Positions 8,370 to 50,019 of a DNA stretch of 64,000 bases are shown in pieces. Numbering within the stretch: position 1 is the first letter of the stretch; each line of letters opens with the position of its first letter. This stretch comes from Fimbriimonadales bacterium (GTDB lineage: Bacteria; Armatimonadota; Fimbriimonadia; Fimbriimonadales; GBS-DC): assembly GCA_025998675.1 (NCBI GenBank), contig AP024673.1, positions 1,639,221 through 1,703,220 of the forward strand, written 5' to 3'. The translations under genes were made by a program, and so were the position numbers. The notes beneath the pieces are model-generated. The model had not been told where the DNA came from, ran no database searches, and saw nothing but the letters and a program-made list of their open reading frames with translations.

Positions 8370-8390
8370 CTCTGCAGAAGGGAATTTGCC

Positions 8391-8640
8391 GAGTAGAGGC
8401 GCGGGCAAGCATCAGTAGGTCGCGGGAGGCGCGCCGACGCCAGCGAACGCTTCCGAAAGGGCTGCCCGCCGAAGCTGTGCGCCCCATCGGCAACCGCACG
8501 GCTGGGCTGCAGGAGAACATCCTGCAGACTGTCGCTTTGCCCTGCGCAAAGCGGAGCGCTACTCGATCAGGCAGACGCCTGCTCGACTCACGCTTGCCTC
8601 GCTCGTTGCGTTCCCCATGATGCCCGGCGTTTCAGGGCGA
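8391..8640 (+). ncRNA. Lysine riboswitch (L box) controlling dapB-dapA
   Basis: The aptamer spans about 8393-8562. It carries the family's conserved blocks in order: TAGAGGCGCGG, ATCAGTAG, GAAAGGGCTGCCCGCCGAAG, GGCTGGGCTG, ACTGTC and GGAGCGCTAC, with GTAG (8393-8396) closing on CTAC (8559-8562) as P1. Downstream are a CAGGC/GCCTG hairpin (8568-8581) and a GCCC/GGGC hairpin (about 8622-8638) just before the dapB ribosome binding site. No long U-run is visible, so control may act on translation. Lysine binding would lower production of the lysine/diaminopimelate enzymes DapB and DapA. Confidence 0.93.
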
Positions 8641-14180: not shown

Positions 14181-14629
14181 ATACCAGTTCGCGCGGCAGA
14201 CCTCGTAAAATATGAGCGCATGGACAGCCCTCACCCCCTGTGTCCCCCTCTCCCAACGGGTTGGGAGAGGGGGATAGCGCGTCGCACGAGGCTCGAGCGA
14301 CTCCCCTCTCCCGCTTGCGGGAGAGGGGCTGGGGGTGAGGGCGATCAAGCGCACGCCTCTCAATCTCAACAGGTTGAGTGGGGGATAGCGCGTCGCACGA
14401 GGCTCGAGCGACTCCCCTCTCCCGCTTGCGGGAGAGGGGCTGGGGGTGAGGGCGATCAAGCGCACGCCTCTCAATCTCAACAGGTTGAGTGGGGGATAGC
14501 GCGTCGCACGAGGCTCGAGCGACTCCCCTCTCCCGCTTGCGGGAGAGGGGCTGGGGGTGAGGGCGATCAAGCGCGCGGCTGTCGCGGCATACCCAGAATA
14601 TTTACGAAACCTAACGCGCCGATTGGTAT
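14181..14629. mobile_element. MITE-like element, 227-bp family, expanded by two 111-bp units
   Basis: Left end ATACCAGTTCGCGCGG (14181) and right end CGCGCCGATTGGTAT (to 14629) are imperfect inverted repeats. Inside is the CCCTCACCCCC...GGGGGTGAGGG core with CCCCTCTCCCGC hairpins. Three tandem units of 111 bp (for example GATAGCGCGTCGCACGAGG starting 14273, 14384, 14495) are present instead of one. Total length 449 is exactly 227 + 2 x 111, the length of the complete copy at 49734-49960 plus two units. No gene is seen; open frames across it are an artefact of the multiple-of-three unit. Confidence 0.85.
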
Positions 14630-34798: not shown

Positions 34799-35720
34799 AG
34801 GCGGCGCGACCCTGCGCGAAACGGTCTTTTTTGAGGGCGTCGGACTGCACACGGGGCAACTCTGCCGCGTGGCGGTGCATCCTGTGTCGGAGGTAAGCAC
34901 GCCATGCGCGATTACCATCCGAAAGGGCAACAGCGTCTTCCCCGCACGCTGGGACTATGTGGTGGACACGACGCGCGCGACCGTGCTGGGCGACGGCGGC
35001 GTGCGCGTCAGCACCGTCGAACATCTGATGGCGGCGCTCTGGATGACAGGCGTCACGCACGGCGTGATTGAACTCCTGCAGGGCGAGGAGATCCCCATCC
35101 TCGATGGCAGCGCACAGCCGTTTGTGGAGGCGTTGCGTGCCGCCCTCACCCCCTTGCCCCCTCTCCCAACGAGTGCGGAGGAACCGCGTGCTGCCCTCAC
35201 CCCCTTGCCCCCTCTCCCAACGGGTTGGGAGAGGGGGAACCCGCAACTCCCCTCTCCCGCCTGCGGGAGAGGGGCTGGGGGTGAGGGCGCGCTCGTTCAG
35301 GCGCGTCATGCGGATCGCTATCTGGGTCTGTCGTTCGGCGGCGACGCGCTGTTTGGCTACATCGATTTTCCCGCGCCGCTGGGCGTGCAGGCGGGCGCGT
35401 TTGCCCTGAGCGACGCCCTCCAGCAGATTGCCCCCGCGCGCACCTTCGGCTTCCTGCGCGAGGTGGAGGCGCTCCGCCAGCAGGGACTCGCGCTGGGCGG
35501 CGCCCTCGAAAACGCGCTCGTCATCGACGAAACTGGGTATCATAATCCTGCGCGTTTCGAGGACGAACCGCTGCGCCACAAACTGCTGGATGTGCTGGGC
35601 GATCTGTACCTGTGCGGCGTGCGACTGACAGGGTTCACGCTGGTTGCAGTCAAGCCCGGACACGCGCTGAATGTGCAGCTGGCGCGGCAGATAGCGCAGG
35701 CATGGTTCACGGAGGACTGA
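34785..35720 (+). CDS. lpxC: UDP-3-O-acyl-N-acetylglucosamine deacetylase with repeat-encoded insertion
   Basis: LpxC catalyses the committed, zinc-dependent step of lipid A synthesis. The expected zinc ligands are His80 ([10 protein letters not shown]), His265 and Asp269 ([11 protein letters not shown]), with the catalytic His293 (PGHALN) and FEGVGLHTG at the start. Residues 121-168 do not belong to the family: they are encoded by a palindromic repeat core (35143-35287) and read LTPLPPLPT... and [12 protein letters not shown]. The insertion is in frame and lies at the join between the two domains, so the enzyme may stay active. Total 311 residues. The next gene, fabZ, starts 2 nt after the stop. 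Confidence 0.93.
35143..35287. repeat. MITE-core palindrome inserted in lpxC
   Basis: The stretch starts CCCTCACCCCCTTGCCCC and ends GGGGCTGGGGGTGAGGG. It holds a partial unit (35143-35193) and then a full core with CCCAACGGGTTGGG and CTCCCGCCTGCGGGAG hairpins. It matches the centre of the 227-bp elements at 49734 and 14181 but lacks their ATACCAA ends. Confidence 0.85.
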
Positions 35721-39344: not shown

Positions 39345-39492
39345 GCACAGGTTCTGGGGTTTTGTCAGTGGGGGGGCGATTCAATCGAAGCTTAACCGTG
39401 CTTTTCAGCGAATGCGGAGTCTTATACCAAATGCGCAGTTAAAGTTCGCAAATCGCCGACGCCTGTAGCCCTCACCCCCTTTGTCCCCCTCT

Positions 39493-39500
39493 GGTATAAT
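39493..39500 (+). promoter_or_regulatory. Promoter at the IS110 left end
   Basis: GGTATAAT forms the very first bases of the element; transcription would start near 39507, at the 5' end of the predicted bridge RNA. In a circular intermediate the right end would supply upstream sequence, TTGACTTTTC, as a possible -35 (TTGACT at 40677-40682). Confidence 0.65.
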
Positions 39501-39504
39501 GCCA

Positions 39505-39700
39505 GCGAAAAAGCTTGGCGGGGTTCCCCGCCAAGCCGACGCGGGGCGGAGCGTCATCCCCTCTGGAACCATAAGTCCGCTGGGAGCCTACGCCCGCCCC
39601 GCCTGCGAACCGTAGCCCGAACCCTTGCACGGGCAACAAGCCCGCAACACCAGAACGGTGCAAAGGCACGGTTCACCATACAAGCATACCCTATCACAGG
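39505..39700 (+). ncRNA. Predicted IS110 bridge RNA
   Basis: Three hairpins in series. The first is an 11-bp perfect stem, GCTTGGCGGGG (39513-39523) with CCCCGCCAAGC (39526-39536). The second, GCGGGGCG (39541-39548) with CGCCCCGC (39595-39602), encloses a loop with CCCCTCT (39558-39564), equal to the left target flank plus CT core, and TGGGAG (39581-39586), complementary to CTCCCA at the right target. The third, GAACCGT (39607-39613) with ACGGTTC (39668-39674), encloses ACCCTTGC (39621-39628), equal to the element's right end, and ACCAG (39649-39653), complementary to CTGGT at its left end. This is the layout of target-binding and donor-binding loops in IS621-type bridge RNAs. Confidence 0.85.
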
Positions 39701-39712
39701 AGGCGAACAACG

Positions 39713-40663
39713 ATGACACACAACACACAACAGACGGCTCTGTATCTCGGCATCGATGTGGGCAAGTACACGCTTACGCTTGCCACCTATCCCACCCCCC
39801 AAGTGTGGGAAATCCCCAACACGCCCGAACAGCATCACGCCCTCGTGCAGCACCTGGCGCAACTACCCATCCAGCGCGTGCTTTTGGAAAGCTCAGGCGG
39901 CTATGAAAAAGGCGTCGTGAACGCCCTCCAGCAAGCAGGCATCCCTGTGGTCGTTGTGCCCGCCCAGCGCGCCCGCTACTTTGCCAAGAGCCTGCGGGGC
40001 AACCTCAAGACCGACCGCGTAGACGCCCAGTTGCTGGCGCACTTTGCCAGCTGCTATCCTGCGCCCGACACAACGGAACCTGCGCAAGTGCAGGCGGAGC
40101 TGAAAGAGTTGTGGGCGCGTCGGGAGCAGTTGGTAGGGCAGCTGGAGGCGGAGAAGAAGCGGCTGCAGGTGGTACACGCCCCAAGCGTGCGGGCGTCGTT
40201 GGCGCGGATGATTGCCGTGCTGCAGGAGGAGCTGGCGCAGATAGAGGCACAAGTCGCGGCGTTGGTGGCATCGGACGAGGCGTTGGCGCATCGGTTTGCG
40301 TTGCTGCAGACGGCGGTTGGGGTTGGAGCCATCGTGGCGTATGGGTTGCTTGCGGAGTTGCCTGAGTTAGGTCAAGTCTCGCGAGAGGCGATAGCGGCGT
40401 TGGCGGGTTTAGCGCCTGTGCGTCGGGAGAGCGGTCGCTGGCGTGGGTCTGCGCGGATAGGCGGGGGGCGTCGGCGGGTGCGTCGGTTGTTGTATCTGGC
40501 GGCGGTGGTTGCGGTGGCTCACGATGCGCGTTGGCGGGCGGTTTATGAGGGGTTAGTGGCGAAGGGGAAGGCAGTGAAGGTGGCGTATTGTGCGGTGGCT
40601 CGTCGTTTATTGGTGGTATTGAACGCGATGGTGCGTGATGGGAGGGCGTATGCGCGTGTGTAG
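39713..40663 (+). CDS. IS110-family transposase (bridge recombinase)
   Basis: A 316-residue IS110 transposase. The N-terminal RuvC-like DEDD domain has Asp15 (LGIDVGKYT), Glu59 (VLLESSGGYEK), Asp101 and Asp104 (KTDRVDAQLLAHF). A coiled coil (about 125-185) leads to the C-terminal Transposase_20 domain with GVGAIVAYGLLAELPELG and the region APVRRESGRWRGSARIGGG, where Ser240 is the likely nucleophile. It is full length and seems intact. Translation starts at ATG 39713 behind AGGAGG, just downstream of the predicted bridge RNA. Confidence 0.95.
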   Translation: MTHNTQQTALYLGIDVGKYTLTLATYPTPQVWEIPNTPEQHHALVQHLAQLPIQRVLLESSGGYEKGVVNALQQAGIPVVVVPAQRARYFAKSLRGNLKTDRVDAQLLAHFASCYPAPDTTEPAQVQAELKELWARREQLVGQLEAEKKRLQVVHAPSVRASLARMIAVLQEELAQIEAQVAALVASDEALAHRFALLQTAVGVGAIVAYGLLAELPELGQVSREAIAALAGLAPVRRESGRWRGSARIGGGRRRVRRLLYLAAVVAVAHDARWRAVYEGLVAKGKAVKVAYCAVARRLLVVLNAMVRDGRAYARV

Positions 40664-40921
40664 GGGAGCAAGGGACTTGACTTTTCAATACCCTTGCTCC
40701 CAACGGGTTGGGAGAGGGGGATAGCGCGTCGCGCGCTGCACACACGGCTCTCCCCTCTCCCGCCGCGCGGGAGAGGGGCTGGGGGTGAGGGCAAAACGCG
40801 CGTGGCTCTGGCTGTAGACGCACGGCAATTACGAACTCTGACAGCGCAGTTGGTATGATTACCGCGACGGCGCTTCGCTCTACAAGCAGGGATTCGTCCC
40901 CCGCTGTCGAATCGCCTGTGT

Positions 40922-49642: not shown

Positions 49643-50019
49643 ACCAACCTCCCCTGTAAGGATGGGATTCGCCTGAACGCGCGTGGTTTCCTGCTGATGG
49701 GCGCGGCAGGAAAGCGGCGCTGAGAGGCGAATGATACCAACTGTGCGGTCATCGTTCGTAAATCGGCGCTGTATGATCGCCCTCACCCCCTTTGTCCCCC
49801 TCTCCCAACGGGTTGGGAGAGGGGGATAGCGTACTGCGCGACGCTCGCACAGCTCCCCTCTCCCGCCGTGCGGGAGAGGGGCTGGGGGTGAGGGCAAAAA
49901 AGCATGCGGCTCTGGCTGCAGGCACACGGCAATTGCGAACTCTGACGGCGCATTTGGTATAAGACAAAAGGCGCGGGGTCTCGCGCCGCAACGACATTGA
50001 GAGGGGGCGTTGCACGATT
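49643..50019. other. Intergenic region containing a complete MITE-like copy
   Basis: The 377-nt divergent gap holds the 227-bp element (49734-49960), the GGGGAGG site of the leftward gene, and a 59-nt stretch before lnt with AAGGCGCGGGGTCTCGCGCC, a small hairpin. No other gene is visible. Confidence 0.6.
49734..49960. mobile_element. 227-bp MITE-like element, complete copy
   Basis: Inverted ends: ATACCAACTGTGCGGTCATC at 49734 and, in complement from 49960, ATACCAAATGCGCCGTCAGA. Inside are CCCTCACCCCC...GGGGGTGAGGG and two hairpins, CTCTCCCAACGGGTTGGGAG and CCCCTCTCCCGCCGTGCGGG. There is no transposase inside, so it would depend on one elsewhere. Flanks do not show an obvious target duplication. 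Confidence 0.85.

Follow-up and report, generated by a model that had tools for sequence, protein, structure and literature searches.

In the IS621 element of Escherichia coli, a bridge RNA encoded in the left end folds into a 5' stem-loop followed by a target-binding and then a donor-binding loop, with guides arranged around a CT core (PMC11208160, PMC11208158). The IS621 recombinase carries the catalytic residues D11, E60, D102, D105 and S241, the base directly following each right guide pairs with position 7 in the other of the two DNAs, and a promoter is built at the junction of the joined element ends (PMC11208158). REP-like sites serve as insertion targets of IS621, and bridge RNAs have been predicted by Durrant et al. 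in 85.7% of the IS110-group elements (PMC11208160). The element described here, from a Fimbriimonadales bacterium, resembles IS621 in its left-end RNA with the same order of stem-loops, its CT core, the strands to which the guides correspond, its handshake bases, its DEDD and serine residues, its junction promoter and its insertion into a REP-type palindrome. It represents a clean new example of the IS621 type of bridge-RNA element, canonical in its features and not a new kind of system; a literature search found no paper that connects IS110 with Armatimonad.

The complete element spans 1204 bp (39493-40696) between two CT dinucleotides (39491-39492 and 40697-40698) of the window, that is, the whole stretch of 64,000 nucleotides analysed here, and all parts of the element and of its target given below lie on the + strand. 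When the flanks are joined, they restore the intact repeat ...CCCTCACCCCCTTTGTCCCCCTCT|CCCAACGGGTTGGGAGAGGGGGA... exactly as it is found in the empty sites of intact repeat copies, showing that the insertion is scarless between the cores; the shared CT, the exact overlap of both flanks and the intact copies, is the sole ambiguity in this joining and is thus identified as the core. The target sequence, TGTCCCCCTCTCCCAACG, lies within an arm of a perfect palindrome of 15 bp, and the repeat is therefore REP-like, its palindrome being different from that used by IS621. The left target half TCCCCCTCT, ending with the core (39484-39492), falls in the left arm, as read in the intact copy L007, and the rest of the interrupted repeat, right target half first, follows the element at 40699-40800. 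Many intact copies of this dispersed two-hairpin (two-palindrome) repeat are present in the genome (one contig, 2.99 Mb), and within the window it recurs at 14245-14272, 35158-35236 and 49797-49824. The right end of the element with the core reads ACCCTTGCT (40690-40698), of which ACCCTTG (40690-40696) is the left donor half, and the left end reads CTGGT (39491-39495). The donor is given as ACCCTTGCTGGTAT and AATACCCTTGCTGGTATAATG, and the predicted circle junction as ACCCTTGCTGGTATAATG. This donor, ACCCTTG-CT-GGTAT, differs from the ACAG...-CT-TGTAT ends that are usual among the relatives read.

The recombinase (316 aa, 39713-40663) contains the DEDD RuvC-like domain PF01548 (E-value 2.9e-21) and the Transposase_20 domain PF02371 (1.5e-17), and its residues D15, E59, D101, D104 and S240 align with the IS621 catalytic residues D11, E60, D102, D105 and S241, respectively. 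In phmmer searches against solved structures, the best PDB sequence match was ISCro4 (9t56, 2.4e-27), a likeness at the protein level alone, followed by IS621 (8wt6, 3.4e-26); both proteins are nevertheless distant from the window recombinase. The left end of 220 nt holds a structured RNA and the right end measures 33 nt, and no inverted repeat, terminal or subterminal, was found joining the two ends. These domains and catalytic residues, together with the left-end RNA, its guides, the handshake bases, the junction promoter and the absence of terminal inverted repeats, place the element in the IS110 group. Assignment to the IS1111 group, which is characterised by a bridge RNA in a long right end and by long subterminal inverted repeats, was considered and rejected, given the 33-nt right end, the location of the RNA in the left end and the absence of a subterminal inverted repeat between the ends.

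The left-end RNA has a predicted folding energy of -93.3 kcal/mol (z -5.4) and comprises a 5' stem-loop (39513-39536), a long target-binding stem with an internal loop (39541-39602) and a second, donor-binding stem-loop (39607-39674). All four guide strings and both element-end strings named in the preliminary description were found at the positions it had given. The left target guide CCCCTCT (39558-39564) and the right target guide TGGGAG (39581-39586), which pairs with CTCCCA, had been placed there in two hairpin loops; the fold instead places them opposite each other in one internal loop of a single stem. Six bases, including the core, are matched by the right target guide, compared with four in the IS621 structure. 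In the donor loop, the left guide ACCCTTGC (39621-39628) ends at the first core base and the right guide ACCAG (39649-39653) pairs with CTGGT. An Rfam search yielded no match to the bridge RNA at the gathering score, its hits in the window being limited to one tRNA and a lysine riboswitch at 8386-8569 (RF00168, E-value 1.2e-25).

With the ends fixed from the intact repeat copies, the ordered four-guide match amounts to 7+6+8+5 = 26 bases, a value reached by none of 5000 dinucleotide shuffles and by none of 2014 window stretches of 220 nt that are free of repeats (best score 21 in both cases). This genomic null was first run with repeats included, whereupon 12 of 3106 stretches reached 26, and was then rerun on the repeat-free stretches. 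When the ends were left free, a blind scan returned a chance placement with a GC core scoring 27, compared with 26 for the element, so that independently determined ends or conserved spacing are needed to single out the placement; once spacing limits were imposed, the scan returned exactly the placement in the element. The high scores of repeat-rich stretches and of the free-end placement are the observations that favour regarding the matches as fortuitous, that is, as arising in an IS110-like element whose loops and flanks both happen to consist of C- and G-rich repeat sequence. The fixed-end tests argue against such coincidence, and so do the donor guides, which fit element ends that are not repetitive and change along with them (ACCCTTG/GGTAT versus ACAGTTG/TGTAT).

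Comparison with related elements bears on the same question. Across 13 elements whose ends had been set by end motifs, independently of the guides, the match of target loops to their own flanks reached a summed score of 167, whereas the maximum among permutations was 156 and none of 50,000 re-pairings did as well; an earlier permutation on 14 loci (0/20,000) had included two loci with no readable left flank as well as L056 and was repeated with the 13 clean elements. This fit to own rather than swapped flanks, together with the co-variation of the handshake bases described below, makes fortuitous matching exceedingly improbable. A covariance model built from just two same-genus RNAs, those of the window element and of its closest relative L012, located the RNA at the start of the transposase gene in 12 further, more distant relatives (E < 0.07, best 6.9e-6). 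Both expectations of the preliminary description, loops co-varying with their own flanks and a conserved RNA upstream of the transposase, were thereby borne out, and tests of the two refuting conditions it had named, the same loops at unrelated targets and missing RNA structure upstream of the transposase in relatives, did not go against it. The position of the hairpin-rich left end directly 5' of the ribosome-binding site would also suit a cis-regulatory leader of the transposase mRNA that does not act as a guide. Such a leader need not have loops that track flanks and element ends across relatives, and no Rfam family matches there; we regard this explanation, too, as having next to no chance of being correct, and retain the interpretation as a bridge RNA.

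Individual relatives illustrate the correspondence between loops and flanks. In Thermomonas haemolytica, the unrelated sites of two copies of one element (L037 and L066) have no more in common than TG-CT in the left flank and CT-CAG in the right flank; the RNA carries CTCTGAG. A 36%-identical IS110 system from the same genus as the window element (L016) sits at AGATTC|CT|CGC, and its target loop carries AGATTCC and GCGAG and would specify the target AGATTCCTCGC. The site of this element, on contig 326 of genome G007, has the context AGATTC|CT|CGCTCCGC and looks like a different dispersed repeat. The closest relative, L012, is an IS110 element of a same-genus genome with 70% protein identity to the window element; it shares the RNA architecture (fold z -6.5), the donor guides and the guide spacings of 22 and 25 nt, and its left end is almost identical. 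Compensatory pair changes relative to the window element occur in its target stem, and its left target guide is changed to TCCCCCT, the sequence of its own left flank. The differing target loop of L012 predicts TCCCCCTCGCC, found at 24 sites in the L012 genome versus 2 for the reversed control. The right end of L012 has been lost, with unrelated sequence after the stop codon (downstream of 2457).

The handshake bases known from IS621 could likewise be read. In the target loop, C39587 complements donor G40696; in the donor loop, A39654 is complementary to target T39490, with L012 having G facing C at the latter position. Across the relatives, the target-loop pairs are Watson-Crick in all 12 testable cases and the donor-loop pairs in 12 of 13, the remaining one being G-U, with changes seen on both sides: the target-loop pair is A/T in L016, and the two pairs are T/A and C/G in L037 and L066. 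Counting the latter two loci as copies of one element leaves 12 distinct elements in this comparison, which omits L056, L032 and L077 for doubtful ends (L056) or for want of a readable left flank, and L030 and L041, in which the position of the right donor guide was uncertain. As read, L056 shows a handshake mismatch.

A further feature shared with IS621 is a predicted sigma-70-like promoter, TTGACT-N18-TATAAT, that is complete only in the circle, because its -35 box (40677-40682) lies at the right end and its -10 box (39495-39500) at the left end of the element. It agrees with the consensus at 11 of 12 bases, a match equalled by 5 of 5000 shuffles, and is also present in most relatives, where the stop codon TGA typically forms part of the -35 box. 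The window element has its stop codon 14 nt farther upstream and an added short hairpin. This hairpin, GGGAGCAAGGG...CCCTTGCTCCC, is found directly 3' of the stop codon (40664-40701), with one arm spanning the right end of the element and 3 bp of the target; it is common to the remnants L002 and L013 and absent from distant relatives. The original proposal, a bridge RNA of the IS621 type whose target and donor loops are arranged around a CT core, is supported by the predicted structure and the guides, by the related elements, by the handshake bases and the junction promoter, and by the homology of the recombinase to those of ISCro4 and IS621. The DEDD and serine residues, the handshake bases and the junction promoter are IS621 hallmarks on which the preliminary description had been silent.

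Taken with the observed sequence features, the likeness to IS621 makes it very probable that the element is an intact insertion sequence of the IS110 group and works in the same way, with RNA binding, cleavage and strand exchange extrapolated from IS621. Against this count the single full copy, the lost right end of L012, the left donor guide ending at the first core base, the handshake mismatch in L056 and the free-end scan, which by itself did not single out the placement. The element would leave as a circle, in which joining of the right end to the left end would create the promoter that transcribes the left-end RNA. The resulting bridge RNA would be bound by the DEDD/Ser recombinase, its first loop pairing with the two target strands (CCCCTCT at the left, CTCCCA at the right, with the common CT core) and its second loop with the junction ACCCTTG-CT-GGT of the element itself. 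By analogy with IS621, the serine would then cleave the top strand next to CT, followed by exchange and resolution, and strand exchange would place the element into one arm of the dispersed palindromic repeat of the host.

The 11-mer specified by the target loop, CCCCTCTCCCA, occurs at 106 sites in the genome, compared with none for the reversed control. The only traces of the element are one full copy and a single 3' remnant, 79% identical to it, so that recent activity is not evident despite the 106 fitting sites. The earlier view of a probably active recombinase is only partly upheld: all parts are intact, whereas the single copy gives no sign of movement. That an element with intact anatomy no longer moves in this host would agree with the occupation of one site among 106 and with the presence of remnants in its own and sister genomes; we consider it unlikely, though, since the open reading frame, catalytic residues, ends, cores, guides, handshake bases and junction promoter are all intact, and a low copy number is common among IS110 elements. 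The host is probably a thermophile, another difference from IS621: the 16S G+C content of 60.6% makes the thermophily assumed in the preliminary description plausible, if not proven. An active bridge recombinase from a thermophile, functioning at elevated temperature with every guide readable and with a natural set of 106 targets in one genome, in other words a thermostable programmable recombinase, is a tentative proposal to which we assign somewhat less than even confidence.

One insertion in a genome distant from that of E. coli thus suffices to read the IS621 code with its handshake positions, and it offers for testing an intact and possibly thermostable recombinase of the bridge-RNA type, whose target and donor are known and for which 106 natural sites exist; its practical interest stems from the probable thermophily of the host. 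The same-genus relatives with other loops, L012 and L016, represent natural reprogramming controls. Outside this genus, multi-copy IS110 elements of the Pirellulaceae KatS3mg111 (L038, L042 and L045-L047) have a common right flank, ATGGCAC, matching TGCCAT in their RNA, which suggests that these elements may use an AT core rather than CT.
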